From positions 62,001-126,000 of the forward strand of contig JAIWND010000027.1 of NCBI GenBank assembly GCA_025330725.1: a stretch of DNA of 64,000 nucleotides. Direction: 5' to 3'. Both the position numbers and the translations under genes were made by a program. Origin of the DNA: Chlamydoabsidia padenii (lineage: Eukaryota; Mucoromycota; Mucoromycetes; Mucorales; Cunninghamellaceae). The notes beneath the pieces were generated by a model that saw only the letters and a program-made list of their open reading frames with translations, ran no database searches and was not told the DNA's origin. Shown here in pieces: positions 44,578-62,500 of the stretch. Each line of letters opens with the position of its first letter. The first letter of the stretch is position 1.

Positions 44578-45511
44578 CTCCTCGGTGCATCATCATGTCT
44601 TTCATAAAGTCATGTTAAATGCATTTATGCAAAATGATTTACTTTTTTTCAAGATAAGCATATACAAACAAATAAATAATATACATTTCCCTATATCTAA
44701 CCAAAAAAAAAAAAAAAAAAACACTTGACAATGTCCCCAAAGTAGTTATCCCATTACTAAAGAAGGATCTATTGTGTGCTTGGACAGTATAAGAGTCGTT
44801 TGTCATCCTTCCATAGTATATAGTATTCTTCTTACCTTCATGTCTTCCCTCCCCCAATGCTTATCGTAGTCTATAAATAAATTAAAAATGAGTATATCTT
44901 TTTCTCATACACCTGTGCATATAGGTATATCAGACAAGGGCGGTAATGTCAAAAAAGGCAACATGATGATAAACCAGTAATCTATTAGACACACATACAA
45001 TAAAATCAACCATCATCAATAAGTATACATTTCGTTAACTGCAACCGACAATCCAAGTTGGAGAAAGGGAAAGAAGAGAAGAAAAGATGAAAAACTTGCT
45101 GGTTTTTTCAATTTCATGCGGTTTACAGTCACCCGGTGAAATATTCACATTCCGCTCATCCTAACTTTATCGAACCGATTGGTCGAACTAGGCATACGGG
45201 AGCATATGCAAGTACAGTATCGTAGATTGGCAAAGCAAGACACCGCAGTGACTATCCTGGAATAACAGGTCCGCATAGTGTAGGTGATTTCATTTCTTCA
45301 AGGTTGATGTTACAAGTGATATTTAGTAAAAACATTACAAAGAAGGTGAAAGCTTTTTTGATACAAGCTGATGGATAAATAAAAAGGATGTAAAATGTCG
45401 GCGAGGGTATAATTTAAAGACCGCCAATCATGCGCTTTTCCTCGATCTGAAACGCAGCCAAATAGATTATAATTTAAAAGATAATGTTTTCATTGAATCA
45501 ATCATTGCAGA
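44260..45511. other. Intergenic region upstream of the S-adenosylmethionine synthetase gene
   Basis: About 1.25 kb of AT-rich DNA ending at the TA target of the Tc1-like element. It holds the synthetase promoter, a ~36-nt T run (44540-44575) and a ~19-nt A run (44702-44720). Positions 45080-45500 are less AT-rich, but no coding frame or RNA gene could be supported. Confidence 0.4.
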
Positions 45512-45772
45512 TACAGTCATTTCAGGAAGTGAAGTCGCGGCTTCAGAATTTGATGTCGCCCAAAAATGTTTCTGTCCAACAATGAAGTCACTTGATCCAA
45601 AAATGAAGTCGTGTTCACGTGCCATGGGCTTTGTTTATTTTTACTTGTCGCTTAGTGATTACCATATAAAATTGCTTGGCATTTTATTTTTATAAAAATG
45701 AAGCGATAGTTCCTTGCTTTTTTTCTCTTCCTTTTTCCTGTTTCAGTTTATTTTACAGTACAGTTATTCAAA

Positions 45773-47059
45773 ATGAGTATTCAGTTTTTTTATGAAGATG
45801 GACGAGGACATGTTGTTGATGAGCACGGAGCTGAGCCCATGGATCTTGTTGTTGATGAGGAGCTGTTCGCTATCGAAATCATAAGTTCTCGTACTCAATT
45901 CCTAAAGAATAAACCTCCAGAAAGACCTAATCCTGCAATACATCCAACTGCAAATGAAATGAGTAATGAAGATGTTGATATGGAGTTATGCAATAAGCGA
46001 CGCTATACATTTTACTCTGATGACGAGAAAACTAGATTTTTTCATCTATTTTTTAGTAAAAACTTAAGTGCTTCTGCTGCTGCAAGACAATTAGGTATTC
46101 ATATTCGTGCAGCCCAGAGATGGGTCAAACGTTATTACGAAGATCCTGAAAGCATTTTTGAGAAGAAGAAAAAATCAGGTCGGCATCGTATTCTTAGGGA
46201 GGAGCATAAGCGATTTCTTTTAAACTACATTGATGAGAATCCTTCTGCTGTTTTAACTGAAGTGGTAGAAAGTTTGACACAAAACTTTGTAGATCTTAAT
46301 GTTTCTCGTAGTACTGTTTATAACTTCATGACAACTCAGTGTAATCTATCCATTAAACAAGCACAATTCCACCCTTTGGAAAGAAATAGCGAAGAAAAAA
46401 TTCAGCAAAGGTACGATTGGGTCCAAAAGTGGCAGCAAACTGACTTGGACTTTACAACCAATTGTGTCTTTCTTGATGAATCAGCCTTTCATATTAATTT
46501 GAAACGGAGTATGGCTTGGTCAAGGAAAGGAACTCCTGCAATAGTTACAGTGCCTACAACTAAAGCAAACGCAACTTCGATTTTAGGTGCAATATCTGCC
46601 ACTGGCTTAATTAATGTTAGTTTGAGGGTTCCAAAGCGTATCAAAAAGAGAAAACTTGGACGTGAGACTGATGCCTATAGCACAGGAACAGTGACAGGGC
46701 ATTATCTGAGCTTTTTAAAGGCCACTCTTGATGAAATGGATAAGTATCCAGAAATGAAGGGACATTATCTTGTCATGGATAATGCTCCTATTCATAGCTC
46801 TACTGATATAGGAAGATATATTCGCTCTCGAGGATATCGGTATGTTTATCTTTCTCCGTATTCTCCTGAACTGAATCCAATTGAGCAGTTCTGGTCAGTT
46901 GTCAAGAGTAAAGTGAAGCGAAATAAGTTTCTGGAAAAAGAGTCGCTAATGACTAGAATTAGTGAGGCATGCGATAGTTTATATTTAAGTGACTTCAAAG
47001 GTTTTGCTTCTCATTCTGCTAAATGTTTTGGAAGGTGTCTTAACAAAGAAAGGTTATAG
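45773..47059 (+). CDS. Tc1/mariner-type DD34E transposase, left-arm copy
   Basis: Cut-and-paste transposase of 428 residues, intact and intronless. Residues ~80-190 form the DNA-binding part with two helix-turn-helix units (ASAAARQLGIHIRAAQRWVK and VSRSTVYNFMTTQCNLS) joined by a basic linker (KKKKSGRHRI). The catalytic triad is D235 (FLDESAFHI), D336 (VMDNAPIH) and E371 (NPIEQFWS), with 34 residues between the last two, the Tc1 spacing. The acidic ~75-residue N-terminal extension is unusual for the family. It starts ~260 bp from the element end and reads inward. Its protein is identical to the copy at 49508-50794. Confidence 0.95.
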   Translation: MSIQFFYEDGRGHVVDEHGAEPMDLVVDEELFAIEIISSRTQFLKNKPPERPNPAIHPTANEMSNEDVDMELCNKRRYTFYSDDEKTRFFHLFFSKNLSASAAARQLGIHIRAAQRWVKRYYEDPESIFEKKKKSGRHRILREEHKRFLLNYIDENPSAVLTEVVESLTQNFVDLNVSRSTVYNFMTTQCNLSIKQAQFHPLERNSEEKIQQRYDWVQKWQQTDLDFTTNCVFLDESAFHINLKRSMAWSRKGTPAIVTVPTTKANATSILGAISATGLINVSLRVPKRIKKRKLGRETDAYSTGTVTGHYLSFLKATLDEMDKYPEMKGHYLVMDNAPIHSSTDIGRYIRSRGYRYVYLSPYSPELNPIEQFWSVVKSKVKRNKFLEKESLMTRISEACDSLYLSDFKGFASHSAKCFGRCLNKERL

Positions 47060-47079
47060 AGCCTCCGTAGACTTTTTGC

Positions 47080-47357
47080 TTAATGGTTTTTTTTGCTTTT
47101 GCTTAATGGGGGGGGGGGTTGCTTAAGCAAAAAAAAAAAAAAAAAAACCATCAAGCAAAAAAAAGCAGTCAAAAAAAACCATCAAGCAAAAAAAAGCAAA
47201 AACGAAAAAAACCATCAAGCAAAAAAAAAAAAACCATTAAGCAAAAAAAAAAAAACCATTAAGCAAAAAAAAAGCAGTCAAAAAAAACCATCAAGCAAAA
47301 AAAAGCAAAAACGAAAAAAACCATTAAGCAAAAAAAAAAACCATTAAGCATCCGCGA
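47080..47357. repeat. CCATTAAGC/poly(A) minisatellite array, left arm
   Basis: Units of ACCATTAAGCAAAAAAAA or ACCATCAAGCAAAAAAAAGC repeat about ten times, with interspersed GCAGTC and GCAAAAACG modules in a recurring higher-order pattern. The array ends in GCATCCGCGAATTTTTTTTT. A GC-rich hinge (GGGGGGGGGGTTGCTTAAGC) precedes it. Frames through it give only Lys/Asn-rich peptides and are not genes. Confidence 0.85.
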
Positions 47358-47519
47358 ATTTTTTTTTTCGTGGTTAAAAGATTTTTTTTTTTTTTTTGAT
47401 ATTGAACATTTTTATTTTTTTACGTACATATCTTAAGGTATAAATTGGATAAAAAAAGGCTACATGGGCATATACGGATGGTCGAAACTAAAAAAAAAAC
47501 ACATTTCTGTGCGGCAATC

Positions 47520-49022
47520 TTAATGATCCAGGGTTAATGAGCATTGGCGTTTTCGTGGTGCCAATTTTCCCTTGACGTTTTCCAAATACGACCTTGACAA
47601 AGTAGCACCTTTAAGCGCAGAAAGATTTTGGTTTGATGGGAGGCAATGGATCTTGTGTACGGATGAAATGAAGATTAAATTGTCCAAATGTCCAATTAAA
47701 TTTAAAAGATCGGGTTTTTTAGTTGGTAATGACATTCGAACAAGTTCTGTGAAGGTGTAAAAATGATGGAAGGATAGGGACATCGCAAAAAAAGTGATAC
47801 AATTTCCAACAACCTGAAACGCCAAGACTTCATTCAAGTTGAATCTGTCAATCGCATCTTTGCAAAAAATTGCAAGCCTGTAGAAGTCATTGACAAGCAG
47901 TGTTGGCGACATATCGGCATGTGGTTTGATTTCCCCATATGCATTTGTGTACTGGTATTGGTATCCTTGCCCGTATATATCAACCTTGTAGTCGGGACGG
48001 TTGTTGGAGTCGTGATTTTCGTCGACCACAATATTTGAACAATGTGCGACTTTTGCTGGCATTTTTGAGGATAAAAAACCGTGCACAAATGGATGAATGT
48101 AACTTGCTGCCAAATGAGCCTCTGAGAGAGGTTTCATATCGCAATCGTATATATACGACAACAACGCAACAATGGCATTAATCACACCGCGTTCATCCTC
48201 GGTTGCCTCCTCCGAAAGAGTCAACAGTTCGATTTTTGCGCGCGTTTCCTCCATTTCTTCATCAATGTATTGCTGGATAATGGTTTTGAGTCGTGAGGAA
48301 ATTTGAAGATTGAAAGTATCACGACGATACTTGCTAATGACATTCGAACGCATCGCCTGCAATAGCGTAGGCGGAAAGATGTTTATCGGTAGACTTTGAT
48401 AATCATATCGCTTTTGGAGAACGAGAATACCAGACATAGATAAAAGTTCGTTGAAATGATCCTCAAATGTAAAAGTGGTTGTTCTCGAGTTTTTGATGCA
48501 CAAAGATCTATAGTGATGGAATTTCAACGAAATATCTTCCCGTTGCATTATCCAATGACCATCTGTCGGTAATTGTTGAACAGATAGGTTGTTGACAATG
48601 TGAATACTGTCTATATGTGAGGCAAGTTCTGACTTCGTATTCATTACATTGGTGCATGAAATACACGCAAATTTTACAAGTATCTTGATACGCGCTTTGT
48701 TGTATTTTTCGATATTCGTTTTATTGTATACATGTACTGCGTTGCCCTGATCACTTTTGGTACGTCGTTCAACTTCTTTTCCGTGTGTTCGGTAAATGTG
48801 GCTTCTTGCACTTTGGAAGGTCGTGTACGAATTATCACAATACGGGCATTCCTTTTTGGCCAAAACAACCGTCTTAGGTGCTGGAATGCTGTTGTCAGGA
48901 ATGTTGTAGTCAGGAATGTTGTTCTCATGGTTACTGTTGTTGTTGCTGTTGTCAGGGGTATTGTTATTAATAATGCCACCGGTACTGGTTGAAGTTGTCG
49001 GAGAATTCATTTCATTTGACAC
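47520..49022 (-). CDS. C2H2 zinc-finger protein with a possible PD-(D/E)XK nuclease domain, transposon cargo
   Basis: A 500-residue intact intronless frame at the centre of the palindromic element. Residues 1-50 are Asn/Ser/Thr-rich. Two C2H2 fingers follow with identical spacing: C59-x2-C62-x12-H75-x4-H80 and C120-x2-C123-x12-H136-x4-H141. A helical middle leads to SEAHLAASYIHPFVHGFLSS (E301). Next come NRPDYKVDIY (D344), NAYGEIKP (E364 and K366) and LAFQVVGN (Q403). The order E...PD...ExK...Q is what a PD-(D/E)XK nuclease core would show; this is inference from motif order, not an alignment. The tail is basic (KGKLAPRKRQ). It reads away from the right-arm transposase's side toward the left array and has no relative elsewhere in the window. 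Confidence 0.8.
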   Translation of the reverse strand: MSNEMNSPTTSTSTGGIINNNTPDNSNNNSNHENNIPDYNIPDNSIPAPKTVVLAKKECPYCDNSYTTFQSARSHIYRTHGKEVERRTKSDQGNAVHVYNKTNIEKYNKARIKILVKFACISCTNVMNTKSELASHIDSIHIVNNLSVQQLPTDGHWIMQREDISLKFHHYRSLCIKNSRTTTFTFEDHFNELLSMSGILVLQKRYDYQSLPINIFPPTLLQAMRSNVISKYRRDTFNLQISSRLKTIIQQYIDEEMEETRAKIELLTLSEEATEDERGVINAIVALLSYIYDCDMKPLSEAHLAASYIHPFVHGFLSSKMPAKVAHCSNIVVDENHDSNNRPDYKVDIYGQGYQYQYTNAYGEIKPHADMSPTLLVNDFYRLAIFCKDAIDRFNLNEVLAFQVVGNCITFFAMSLSFHHFYTFTELVRMSLPTKKPDLLNLIGHLDNLIFISSVHKIHCLPSNQNLSALKGATLSRSYLENVKGKLAPRKRQCSLTLDH

Positions 49023-49042
49023 GATCTGATTGATCGATTTTC

Positions 49043-49495
49043 AAAAAAAAACCATTAAGCAAAAAAAAAACCATTAAGCATCCGCGAATTTTTTTTTGAC
49101 TGCTGGTTTTTTTTTTTTTGCTTAATGGTTTTTTTCGTTTTTGCTTTTTTTTGCTTGATGGTTTTTTTTGACTGCTTTTTTTTGCTTAATGGTTTTTTTT
49201 TTGCTTAATGGTTTTTTTTTTGCTTAATGGTTTTTTTTTTTGCTTAATGGTTTTTTTTTTGCTTAATGGTTTTTTTCGTTTTTGCTTTTTTTTGCTTGAT
49301 GGTTTTTTTTGACTGCTTTTTTTTTGCTTAATGGTTTTTTTTTTTTTGCTTAATGGTTTTTTTCGTTTTTGCTTTTTTTTGCTTGATGGTTTTTTTTGAC
49401 TGCTTTTTTTTGCTTGATGGTTTTTTTTTTTTTTTTTTTGCTTAAGCAACCCCCCCCCCAATAAGCAAAAGCAAAAAAAACCATTAAGCAAAAAG
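49043..49495. repeat. CCATTAAGC/poly(A) minisatellite array, right arm
   Basis: The inverted counterpart of the left array but longer (~450 versus ~280 bp), with about twice as many units in the same higher-order order. The module GCATCCGCGAATTTTTTTTT is present at 49078-49097 in the same orientation as the left-arm module at 47348. So this boundary sequence is direct, not inverted, relative to the arms. Confidence 0.85.
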
Positions 49496-49507
49496 TCTAC
49501 GGAGGCT

Positions 49508-50794
49508 CTATAACCTTTCTTTGTTAAGACACCTTCCAAAACATTTAGCAGAATGAGAAGCAAAACCTTTGAAGTCACTTAAATATAAACTATCGCATGC
49601 CTCACTAATTCTAGTCATTAGCGACTCTTTTTCCAGAAACTTATTTCGCTTCACTTTACTCTTGACAACTGACCAGAACTGCTCAATTGGATTCAGTTCA
49701 GGAGAATACGGAGAAAGATAAACATACCGATATCCTCGAGAGCGAATATATCTTCCTATATCAGTAGAGCTATGAATAGGAGCATTATCCATGACAAGAT
49801 AATGTCCCTTCATTTCTGGATACTTATCCATTTCATCAAGAGTGGCCTTTAAAAAGCTCAGATAATGCCCTGTCACTGTTCCTGTGCTATAGGCATCAGT
49901 CTCACGTCCAAGTTTTCTCTTTTTGATACGCTTTGGAACCCTCAAACTAACATTAATTAAGCCAGTGGCAGATATTGCACCTAAAATCGAAGTTGCGTTT
50001 GCTTTAGTTGTAGGCACTGTAACTATTGCAGGAGTTCCTTTCCTTGACCAAGCCATACTCCGTTTCAAATTAATATGAAAGGCTGATTCATCAAGAAAGA
50101 CACAATTGGTTGTAAAGTCCAAGTCAGTTTGCTGCCACTTTTGGACCCAATCGTACCTTTGCTGAATTTTTTCTTCGCTATTTCTTTCCAAAGGGTGGAA
50201 TTGTGCTTGTTTAATGGATAGATTACACTGAGTTGTCATGAAGTTATAAACAGTACTACGAGAAACATTAAGATCTACAAAGTTTTGTGTCAAACTTTCT
50301 ACCACTTCAGTTAAAACAGCAGAAGGATTCTCATCAATGTAGTTTAAAAGAAATCGCTTATGCTCCTCCCTAAGAATACGATGCCGACCTGATTTTTTCT
50401 TCTTCTCAAAAATGCTTTCAGGATCTTCGTAATAACGTTTGACCCATCTCTGGGCTGCACGAATATGAATACCTAATTGTCTTGCAGCAGCAGAAGCACT
50501 TAAGTTTTTACTAAAAAATAGATGAAAAAATCTAGTTTTCTCGTCATCAGAGTAAAATGTATAGCGTCGCTTATTGCATAACTCCATATCAACATCTTCA
50601 TTACTCATTTCATTTGCAGTTGGATGTATTGCAGGATTAGGTCTTTCTGGAGGTTTATTCTTTAGGAATTGAGTACGAGAACTTATGATTTCGATAGCGA
50701 ACAGCTCCTCATCAACAACAAGATCCATGGGCTCAGCTCCGTGCTCATCAACAACATGTCCTCGTCCATCTTCATAAAAAAACTGAATACTCAT
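49508..50794 (-). CDS. Tc1/mariner-type DD34E transposase, right-arm copy
   Basis: The inverted twin of the gene at 45773-47059, with an identical 428-residue product including the D235, D336 and E371 triad. The leader back to the element end also matches wherever compared (for example the CACGTGCCATGGGCTTTGTT-type segment). Full identity between copies means a very recent duplication or ongoing gene conversion between the arms. Both copies read inward, toward the arrays. Confidence 0.95.
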   Translation of the reverse strand: MSIQFFYEDGRGHVVDEHGAEPMDLVVDEELFAIEIISSRTQFLKNKPPERPNPAIHPTANEMSNEDVDMELCNKRRYTFYSDDEKTRFFHLFFSKNLSASAAARQLGIHIRAAQRWVKRYYEDPESIFEKKKKSGRHRILREEHKRFLLNYIDENPSAVLTEVVESLTQNFVDLNVSRSTVYNFMTTQCNLSIKQAQFHPLERNSEEKIQQRYDWVQKWQQTDLDFTTNCVFLDESAFHINLKRSMAWSRKGTPAIVTVPTTKANATSILGAISATGLINVSLRVPKRIKKRKLGRETDAYSTGTVTGHYLSFLKATLDEMDKYPEMKGHYLVMDNAPIHSSTDIGRYIRSRGYRYVYLSPYSPELNPIEQFWSVVKSKVKRNKFLEKESLMTRISEACDSLYLSDFKGFASHSAKCFGRCLNKERL

Positions 50795-51129
50795 TTTGAA
50801 TAACTGTACTGTAAAATAAACTGAAACAGGAAAAAGGAAGAGAAAAAAAGCAAGGAACTATCGCTTCATTTTTATAAAAATAAAATGCCAAGCAATTTTA
50901 TATGGTAATCACTAAGCGACAAGTAAAAATAAACAAAGCCCATGGCACGTGAACACGACTTCATTTTTGGATCAAGTGACTTCATTGTTGGACAGAAACA
51001 TTTTTGGGCGACATCAAATTCTGAAGCCGCGACTTCACTTCCTGAAATGACTGTATATATACACTATATGGTGGTAAGGACTAATAAGGAAGAGAATAAC
51101 AAATGATAAAAAAGTAGAATAGCCTAGGA

Positions 51130-59558: not shown

Positions 59559-62500
59559 TTATTTAACATCATCATACCCCATAATATAATCATTCATATC
59601 AATGAACCTATAACTACATTGATCCAGATACTTTTTAATTATTCTTCGTAGTGATTGGAAGGTGTCATCATGTTGCTTGACAATAGCCAGTTTGGCGGGA
59701 TCTATTAAAAAAAAAAAAAAAAAAAAAAAAGAGTTCCGAGTTCATGCAACTAGCCAACTTATATATTTTACCTTGATTGTCCGTATCAAATAACCCATCA
59801 AAATAGAGTAATTGGGAATAAAGCATTTCTGCCGTATACTATTAAAAAAATAACATATGAGTCCATCGTCATTTCACCATACAACTTACCTCTTTTACCA
59901 ATGTGCCATGACATGTCTGACACTGTAAACTACAATCCCGAATTTTATAATCACAATCCACATCTTGACAGATGAGCCAGCCTTGATAGTAAAGTCCAAT
60001 ATGAGCACGTATGGCTAGCACCAATTGACTTGATAAACCAGTCATGATGTGTTGACAATGAGTGCATTGTAAACCAGATACCCAGCAACCCATAGTGGGA
60101 TGGTACTTTGCATACCCCTGGATTTTGTTACGACCGTGACAATGTGAGCATTTGACCTTTAAAGCATCCAGTCCGGTTGTACGTTCCATTTTCTTGAAAG
60201 AGGCGTCTTGTTTCTTGTTCGTTTGTCGTCGTCCTTGTCGTTTCGACTCCGTTGGAGGTGGAGGGTTCAGTCCACAACAAAGAGCCAATTCGCTGGTATC
60301 CATGATAGGTTCACATAGTCGAGTGACAGAAGGTAAGATTTCATGTTCGAAGTACCAATCGTAATCTAAAAAAAGGGAGGTTAGAAGAAGAAGAAGAGGA
60401 AGAAGAAAGAAGAGTGATATGTTTACCTAGCGTCTTTTGTCCAGTTTCTGCTTCAAAAAGAGAGATGGCCTTGTCCGCCGTGCTGGCATTCATTTCATCA
60501 TCAGCCAAACATATAATATAGGCCACTGTATCACCGCCTTTGATAACATGTCCTGCTTGTTGCATTTTCAGGGCGACTTGGACATGGACTTGACCTTTGA
60601 CCTTGGTATAACTATCAAGATCTTTGGTGAGATGCTATGTTACAAAGATTGATTGATTAATCAAGTGGGTTTTCTTATTTTTCTATTTCTTTTTACCTTG
60701 TGGATCAAGAATTTGGTGATTGGCACATTACCGGCACGCACTTGTTGATTGATCCGTTTCAAAACAATCTGTACTGCTTCTTGTTTATTGGATTCATCAG
60801 ATAAAATCACCTTGAGTATACGCCTAGATAATAATAATAATAATAAAAAAGTGAGTAAAAAAAAAAAAAAAAAGTAACCCATTTACTTACATTGTGGTAA
60901 AAAAACACAGTTCAGATACATCTTTCCGAATAATCACCGACCCCTTTGGTTTGATGATATAATTGTTATTCACCATGACTAGAGAAGCGTAATTTTTCTT
61001 TCCCAGAATCAACAGCCGCCGAAAATAACCATCAATCCCCAGTTCCAACAATCGATATTTACTATTGATCACGCCTTGTACTTGGTTCGCAATCCTCTGG
61101 GCAGCTTGCATGGTGGATTCAGTGGTTGCCACCATGATCGAGTCTGTATCACCATAAACAATATCCAAGTCTAGTTCTTGTTCCACTGCGTCCACCGTGT
61201 CTCGTAAAATGGTGCGTCCTTGAGATGTGATCATGGCTGCTAAATGTCGCGCGGAAAATCGTGAGAAGCCAGACCCGAGACTGCCATATATACTGTTGGC
61301 GGTTAATTTGAGTGCATTCTGTTCAATGTCGTACTACAGAAGAAGGAGTGAGTTGTGTGACAATTCATGGTGAATCGCATTTTATACCTACCTGCATTTT
61401 CTTGTTTTCATCCAATCCTGGTGTTTTCATGAGTTGTTTAACTTGTTTCCGTTCATTTACAAATCGTTCCATCAGTCGAGGTAGCACACCAAGGGGTATA
61501 TCTGGACCAGGTATATCAGGAAGAAGATTCCCTTCGCCAACCTATCCACACAATCAATTAGTTTACCTTTTGCTATCCCCCTCTCTAACTGACTTGCCTT
61601 TTTTGTATCCACAGTGGTAAAACATATATTAAATTCTTGTATGATACTTGGATACAAACTATTAAAATCCAAAAGGACAACAAATTGTTCATGAAGACCA
61701 ATTTTAGGTTCCAACAAAAGCCCACCACCATAAGAAGGGCCCTGTTTTTTCGATTGCTTGGTTTTACCCCATTCGGAATAAAGTTTGTCCATCAACGCTT
61801 CTTCTACATGTATGTGAGTTGAGTTTGTTCTTTTTTTCCCTTTGTTATGCTTACCCTCTTCCAATCCTTCCAATTCGATTCCACCTTGACTGATATCCGA
61901 ATGATTACTATCAGGACAGATGAATTTGAGTTGATGAAATTCATGCAAGAGCAAGTATTCGTTTCGATTCATTCTTGAACCATCCAAAGACCGAGACCAA
62001 AGATTGCCGGCAATAGTGGTGAGTTTTTTAGATAGTTGCAAGATCTGGAATTTAAAGAGCAAAATCATGGCCAAGTAGGCATCCATCCAACATTGTTGCG
62101 CGACAAGAATGGTTGCCTTGTCAAAGGAATAATGCTCTAGTTTCATCGATGGAGGTTCATCATCACTTTGTATACCCAGTTGAGTTTCTGCCAAAGACGA
62201 CAGATTGTAGGATTTGGTGAGGATGAGTGATTTCAATCCAACCATTGTGTCGCAGACAAGTCGGCCCGCCAAGAGTGCCTTTTCCCTTGATGTTGTCCCC
62301 GGTAAAAGTTTTGGCATGCTATATATATATATATATCAACATAATTGGTTTAGATCAAAAGTAAAAAGATTCTTTTTTCGCTTACCTTTTCCATCGAAGT
62401 CGTCCAATTTTATGCCAATAGGAAGTATCACATGTTTTCATTCGGTGTAATAGAGTACCCAAAGTAGATCGCGAGAACCCATGACTTACAATAACATCAG

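Follow-up and report, generated by a model that had tools for sequence, protein, structure and literature searches.

Structure of the palindromic element

The stretch of DNA analysed here, called the window in what follows, comprises 64,000 nucleotides of Chlamydoabsidia padenii (Cunninghamellaceae, Mucorales), positions 62,001 to 126,000 of contig JAIWND010000027.1, and carries from 45514 to 51053 a palindromic element of 5,540 bp, with TA adjoining both sides. Its sequence is that of a single unit: there is just one pair of outer ends, each of the very long terminal inverted repeats (TIRs) contains a transposase gene, and one cargo gene occupies the centre.

The left arm begins on the + strand with the outer TIR and the 5' non-coding part (45514..45772, beginning CAGTCATTTCAGGAAG), followed by a transposase gene (45773..47059, +) that encodes a protein of 428 amino acids (aa) of the IS630/Tc1 type, DD34E; at its inner end lies a minisatellite (47125..47350, not assigned to a strand) with units around CCATTAAGCAAAAAAA. 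The right arm presents the same parts in inverted order: a minisatellite, likewise strandless and inverted relative to that of the left arm (49043..49433), a transposase gene whose protein is identical to the left one (49508..50794, -) and the outer TIR with the 5' non-coding part (50795..51053, -). Between them lies the cargo gene (47520..49010, -), which encodes an intact protein of 496 aa with two C2H2-type fingers and a PD-(D/E)XK-like C-terminal region. The TA dinucleotides at 45512..45513 and 51054..51055, neither assigned to a strand, are presumed from their position to be the target-site duplication.

A preliminary description of this stretch had proposed that the outer arms are inverted copies, each with an intact DD34E transposase, that only the outermost ends sit next to TA, and that the centre encodes an intact zinc-finger protein. 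These three observations held in our analysis, to which the nuclease-like C-terminal motif of the central protein can now be added. The open reading frames (ORFs) of the two transposases are identical over their 428 aa, and the arms, aligned from 45511 to 47163 against the inverted stretch from 49404 to 51056, are 99% identical over 1,653 nt; the gapped alignment (1,647/1,653 bases) contains 1 mismatch and 8 gap columns, none of them inside the transposase gene. The length of this repeat excludes a chance origin of the palindrome. With up to one mismatch allowed, the element contains the CAGTCATTTC decamer at two positions only, 45514 (+) and 51053 (-), and each of these outer copies adjoins TA. 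The sequence is unique in the centre and on both outer sides.

The transposase

The transposase of the element matches PF13358 (DDE_3) with 85 bits (cut-off 28.6) and the NCBIfam model transpos_IS630 with 150.5 bits (cut-off 100), and in the PDB it matches Sleeping Beauty (E 4.2e-5). Its catalytic triad is D235, D336 and E371, the last two separated by 34 residues (DD34E); in an alignment of 18 sequences E371 is invariant and both D are nearly so. Two features of IS630/Tc1/mariner, a DDE_3/IS630-type domain and a triad spacing of at least 34 residues, are thus present. The layout that is typical of the superfamily without being obligatory, 1-2 kb with one transposase between two TIRs, is not the one found here, and because of its two transposase genes and its 5,540 bp we call the element a variant of IS630/Tc1/mariner. 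Among the best 120 of the 527 related proteins, those that carry a name come from Mucorales such as Rhizopus, Mucor, Parasitella, Rhizomucor and Absidia. The ratio of amino-acid-changing to silent substitution (dN/dS) was 0.08-0.18 in five comparisons of transposases, which shows purifying selection.

The cargo protein

The first finger of the cargo protein (aa 54-76; 48783..48851, -) has a weak Pfam match below the cut-off and aligns with the second cargo family described below; the second one (aa 116-137; 48600..48665, -) was placed by reading the sequence. All Pfam matches of the cargo to C2H2 fingers were weak and below cut-off, and the best match in the PDB profile search was to the fingers of CTCF (E 0.0093). 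Two alignments were built. The first one, A1, has 23 rows, namely the window cargo and 22 of the 23 relatives found, P0023 (a transposase-cargo fusion) being left out; the relatives with a name are all from Mucorales, and the others come from further datasets. In A1, E297, P339, D340, E360 and K362 are nearly invariant, and the motif E297 ... P339-D340 ... E360-x-K362 (47925..48122, -) is PD-(D/E)XK-like. The second one, A2, has 31 rows, consisting of 29 proteins found with the cargo of locus C41 plus the C41 and C53 proteins; one of the 29, P0143 (BC941DRAFT_442566), is the C41 locus itself. Here the conserved residues are E307, P353, E373 and K375, the D of the PD falling below the 90% list, and five of the 31 rows match zf-C2H2_2 (E up to 0.1). 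The A1 and A2 profiles are homologous over their full length (probability 99.94, E 2.7e-37), with the Cys/His finger pattern and the RPD...GExK stretch aligned between the two families. The E...PD...ExK pattern is also present in the cargo relatives of C36 and C8.

PD-(D/E)XK nucleases have as their signature the residue order E ... PD ... ExK. From this conserved motif, the cargo is perhaps a natural zinc-finger nuclease. The label "zinc-finger nuclease" is a motif-based one; the C-terminal region has no nuclease match in Pfam, NCBIfam or the PDB. No cargo relatives were found in the virus contigs that were scanned.

Related elements in the C. padenii genome

A search of the genome with the transposase yielded at least 102 matches (98 of the 146 first-look candidates were scored), which merged to 71 loci, many of them fragments. 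Beyond the window element, labelled C20 in the comparisons of arms and cargos, we read five further inverted pairs, namely C37:94315-99721, C53:73.6-78.9 kb, C27:233.6-243.4 kb, C36:144.8-154.7 kb and C51:6.8-10.2 kb. The first of these repeats the plan of the window element, being a 5.4-kb element with TA and CAGTCATTTC at both ends, a central cargo relative and a transposase in both arms, broken in both; its arms differ by 0 mismatches and 4 gap columns. In the C53 and C36 pairs the plan recurs, but the sequence has diverged further and the ends are damaged. A central cargo relative is present in three of the five further pairs (C37, C53 and C36). The C36 cargo matches those of C37 (E 2e-8) and C53 (E 2e-10) and gave no direct match to the window cargo.

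The preliminary description had regarded the locus as a mobile unit whose TIRs include the transposase gene and which carries a second enzyme as cargo, had asked whether copies with the same ends and the same central gene exist in the genome and in related Mucoromycota, the group to which C. padenii does belong, and had reckoned that single-transposase elements without any second full structure would speak against it. Our results support this reading: the plan does recur, and C37:94315-99721 repeats it in full. The copies found in C37, C53 and C36 are relatives and not the exact unit of the window, and the cargo is a putative enzyme on the strength of its conserved motif.

All 17 family ends examined start with CAGTCATTTC and 16 of the 17 are preceded by TA, these ends having been chosen through alignment to the window TIR, a procedure that favours query-like ends. 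Distant elements have variant ends, TA + CACTCTTTCC on the right of C27 and TA + CAGTCGTTCC on the left of C36, and the ends are lost or degenerate in C36 (right), C27 (left) and C53 (left). An exact search for the pattern TACAGTCATTTC gave 29 occurrences in the genome, compared with 16 for the reversed control, so that by itself it is a poor marker of family ends; 19 of the 29 occurrences lie at copies found by homology. In addition, there are single arms with an adjacent cargo, for example C35, C38 and C41:155 kb. Within the 3-5 kb read around the single arms C41:6.2 kb, C20:47.7 kb, C36:179.8 kb and C39:64.3 kb, a second arm was not found.

Several other loci of the genome deserve mention. 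Minisatellites at the inner arm ends were seen in all four palindromes tested, on both sides in C20, C37 and C53 and in the left arm of C27; their units differ between palindromes, AGGTAAGG being common to C37 and C53 (L057, L058, L059). The closest relative of the window ends, among the matches listed, is a lone 139-bp stretch at C59:38930-39068, 96% identical to the window TIR. Inside the 10-kb C36 palindrome lies the 2.7-kb element C36:149224-151901 (L031), one family member nested in another. The C27 palindrome has arms of 2,010 bp (96.3%) and a 5.8-kb centre (C27:235.6-241.4 kb; L059, L046) without the usual cargo, where ORFs of 343 and 496 aa without a Pfam match are found; it is possibly another cargo or a nested element. 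At C11:393719-394700 (L010, L017) a TIR-like end stands directly before a broken cargo relative with no transposase between them, which may be a non-autonomous derivative. Finally, at C37:151395-165717 (L040, L043) inverted transposases about 12 kb apart are sisters in the arm tree, and could form a seventh, larger pair.

Concerted evolution of the arms

For all six pairs, the left and right arms of the same element were sisters in a tree built from 28 arms. The arms of C20 and those of C37 are identical rows in this tree, and the C53 pair is supported by 83/42 only, with the half element at C41 beside it. The identity at aligned bases within the six elements is 100, 100, 97.9, 99.6, 99.8 and 98.5%, against 50.1-85.1% between elements. 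When longer stretches with gaps and minisatellites are included the pairs are less alike, for example 96.3% in C27 and 95.3% in C51.

Furthermore, the two arms have the same transposase lesion in five of the six pairs: a frame break near aa 88-117 in C37, an end at aa 172 in C51, a break near aa 287-293 in C53, a break near aa 178-202 in C27, and a break near aa 256-280 together with TAG and TAA in C36. The lesions of C37, C53 and C27 are also visible in the ORFs. A lesion that is common to both arms either was copied from arm to arm or is older than the last copying. Taken together with the tree, this leads us to infer from the sequences that the arms are homogenised, gene conversion being the simplest account of it and a repeated regrowth of one arm from the other its nearest rival.

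Linkage of the cargo and exchange of centres

A family transposase match was present within 2.5 kb of 11 of the 26 cargo loci, whereas 2,000 random placements gave 1.89 on average and never more than 7. Within 5 kb the number is again 11 of 26 (random mean 3.09, maximum 8). The placements were drawn within the same contigs, for some of which the length was approximated.

To compare arms and cargos, 21 pairs of seven elements were considered, one of them without a cargo match. The arms of C20 and C35 are 86.3% identical and their cargos share 24% of residues; for C37 and C53, the arms are 63.9% identical and the cargos 53%. The silent-site divergence (pS) shows the same disagreement: it is 0.34 for the transposase and 0.81 for the cargo in C20/C35, 0.45 and 0.79 in C20/C37, 0.49 and 0.78 in C37/C35, and 0.75 and 0.83 in C37/C53. 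Among C20, C35 and C37, the silent sites are thus unsaturated in the transposases (0.34-0.49) and saturated in the cargos (0.78-0.81). The disagreement between arm and cargo divergence indicates that centres were exchanged between arms, at least in the lineage of C20, C35 and C37. The pairs C37/C38 and C53/C41 are close in arm and cargo alike. After the single arm at C41:6.2 kb comes what is left of a cargo of the C36 type (E 5e-12).

Close relatives in other Mucorales

The window cargo matches a protein named from Rhizopus azygosporus in 489 of 496 residues and one named from Mucor circinelloides in 295 of 305 aligned residues. The window transposase matches a protein named from Rhizopus delemar in 376 of 380 aligned residues, while the other transposase copies of its own genome are, among the matches listed, at most 88% identical to it. 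Cargo relatives with no more than 40-58% identity occur in the genera Rhizopus and Mucor as well, and the contigs that carry the R. azygosporus cluster have at most 2,336 bases. These protein identities, taken by themselves and apart from host genes, suggest a recent horizontal transfer among families of Mucorales. The protein P0023, from a 2.8-kb contig of another dataset, joins the N-terminal part of the transposase to that part of the cargo which contains the zinc fingers; this fusion could be a deletion or a predicted splicing in a close relative of the window element.

Proposed mechanism and alternative explanations

We consider it likely that the locus is a palindromic ("two-headed") IS630/Tc1 DNA transposon with conversion between its arms, exchange of its centre and a probable zinc-finger-guided PD-(D/E)XK nuclease as cargo. 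Judging from its anatomy and from what is known of the superfamily, the DD34E transposase made from either arm would bind the outer CAGTCATTTC ends, excise the whole 5.5-kb unit and insert it at TA. The arms would copy sequence from each other, by intramolecular gene conversion or by fold-back repair, for which the concerted evolution and the common lesions are strong indirect evidence; as a result of such copying both transposase genes would stay nearly identical, whether intact or broken. The arms that elements have in common would also act as homology handles for the exchange of centres, as the incongruence of arms and cargos suggests. The cargo, for its part, probably acts to the benefit of the element as a PD-(D/E)XK nuclease guided by its zinc fingers. 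The role we favour for it, unproven and speculative, is that of making breaks that stimulate repair from the element, with its copying and the homogenisation of its arms, or that of choosing the target. Two points have the best support, namely that the arms evolve in concert and that the central gene is exchanged.

It should be noted that several results weigh against this interpretation. In the genome we found no second copy of exactly the window unit, and we observed neither an empty site nor a polymorphic insertion nor a transposition event; among the pairs read, only the window element has both transposases intact. Between the arms of C27 and C51 there is no recognisable cargo, which means that the cargo is not needed for the palindrome. 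Fifteen of the 26 cargo loci are without a family transposase match within 5 kb, although one of them, C10, has alongside it a weak transposase match absent from the 102-match search. The elements C36:149224-151901 and C38:118327-121942 have one transposase each and two short TIRs (143 bp at 81% and 60 bp at 97%, respectively). As regards the nuclease, Pfam, NCBIfam and PDB profile searches gave no nuclease match for the cargo, and a simple pattern search for the nuclease-like motif found none in the cargo relatives of C35 and C48. The dN/dS of two recent cargo pairs, both from damaged elements, is 0.66 and 1.09, values that come from few changes and are uninformative.

Some of these results bear on whether the cargo takes any part in transposition. 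The palindrome could be real and mobile and its cargo a passenger or a selfish gene, such as a homing-type or a defence nuclease; this is compatible with our explanation of the palindrome itself, and we hold it possible without favouring it. The exchange of cargos between arms, their absence in recognisable form from C27 and C51 and the 15 cargo loci without a family transposase match within 5 kb all fit such a passenger. Against it, the cargo superfamily recurs with several arm lineages, and between cargo lineages the silent sites are saturated (pS 0.78-0.83) and the amino-acid-changing ones are not (pN 0.31-0.56).

A different origin of the palindromes, which we regard as unlikely, is that they form anew by TIR expansion, one end being copied onto the other in an element with one transposase and one cargo, so that the arms would be alike because they are young and not because they convert. 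The two single-transposase elements with short TIRs agree with such a precursor, and so does Tc1-MP1 of Mucor piriformis, a 1,688-bp element with one ORF and TIRs of 141 bp (PMC9977792). However, this would take a separate recent event, with the same stretch copied every time, in each of six lineages whose arms are 50-85% identical; the lesions that the two arms share in five pairs must already have existed when the last copying took place; and the single-transposase elements are equally explicable as deletion derivatives. Both this origin and the arm conversion that we prefer have the key step in common, namely that one arm serves as template for the other.

It is much less probable that two ordinary Tc1 elements inserted nearby in opposite orientation and flank a host gene, as a composite of the Tn10 kind or by chance. 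Bacterial composites of IS630 are mentioned in PMC9977792, and the genome of C. padenii holds many single arms; but the window element lacks the inner ends of a composite, CAGTCATTTC being found with up to one mismatch at its outer ends only, the arms are sisters within each of the six pairs, and the same cargo superfamily is repeatedly found between or beside the arms. An assembly artefact, that is, collapsed or over-polished inverted repeats, is the least credible option of all: nearly identical arms of 1.2-2 kb are hard for polishing, which may have erased small differences between arms, but the outer flanks and the centre are unique, the minisatellite differs in length between the two arms, at least one mismatch separates the arms in five of the six pairs and gaps do so in the sixth, and P0023 shows close relatives of transposase and cargo linked in another dataset.

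Comparison with known systems

Among the transposable elements of the Mucorales studied in PMC7928374, Tc1/mariner elements form the largest group, and mariners make up 3.62% of the R. oryzae assembly (PMC2699053). Tc1-MP1 and its relatives of Mucoraceae and Rhizopodaceae are, like the window element, Mucorales elements whose Tc1/IS630 transposase is of the DD34E type and about 430 aa long; unlike it, they have no second transposase and no cargo in the accessible part of PMC9977792, and the layout of the Tc1-MP1 family is not the one found here.

Tc1/mariner elements with accessory genes are known from other organisms. Following the sections available of PMC4724952 and PMC3464196, the ciliate elements TBE, Sardine and Thon resemble the window element in having accessory genes (a tyrosine recombinase in Sardine and Thon), and the long TIRs of Sardine and Thon are themselves palindromic; they differ in having one transposase gene, not inside both TIRs, and other accessory proteins. 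Viral Mariner elements combine a transposase with an endonuclease of GIY-YIG or restriction type and have differing 3' portions behind a common transposase end, whereas their TIRs are conventional, the transposase is single, the third gene is a methyltransferase or Fanzor, and no palindrome is mentioned in the part of PMC3627910 that was accessible.

Beyond this superfamily, two further kinds of element can be compared with the one described here. Elements of the Foldback/Galileo type resemble it in their very long terminal repeats with internal tandem repeats; to our knowledge they belong to other transposase superfamilies and do not have the transposase duplicated in the TIRs. TnsA and TnsB of Tn7 also pair a DDE transposase with a nuclease of the PD-(D/E)XK fold, in a bacterial system of unrelated architecture and without zinc fingers.

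The literature searched, whose coverage is partial and leaves Repbase outside, showed no Tc1 element in which both terminal repeats contain a transposase gene. The window element is a new structural variant within IS630/Tc1/mariner and not a new kind of system. A wider proposal, a "two-headed" Tc1 class widespread in Mucorales, with conversion from arm to arm, cassettes swapped by way of the arms, a cargo nuclease driving the copying and recent jumps between Cunninghamellaceae, Rhizopus and Mucor, is at present a tentative one, which we put forward with more doubt than trust.

If our interpretation is true, one of the best-known superfamilies of transposons would include a new architecture, in which the terminal repeats contain the transposase gene. 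Such a gene would have a backup copy and a repair template, a broken transposase gene could in turn spread to the other arm, and the long arms would let elements trade cargo. The cargo points to an uncharacterised zinc-finger family with a nuclease-like motif, whose members, if this is confirmed, would be natural counterparts of the engineered zinc-finger nucleases. In addition, the protein identities point to what may be a recent horizontal spread of transposons among moulds.

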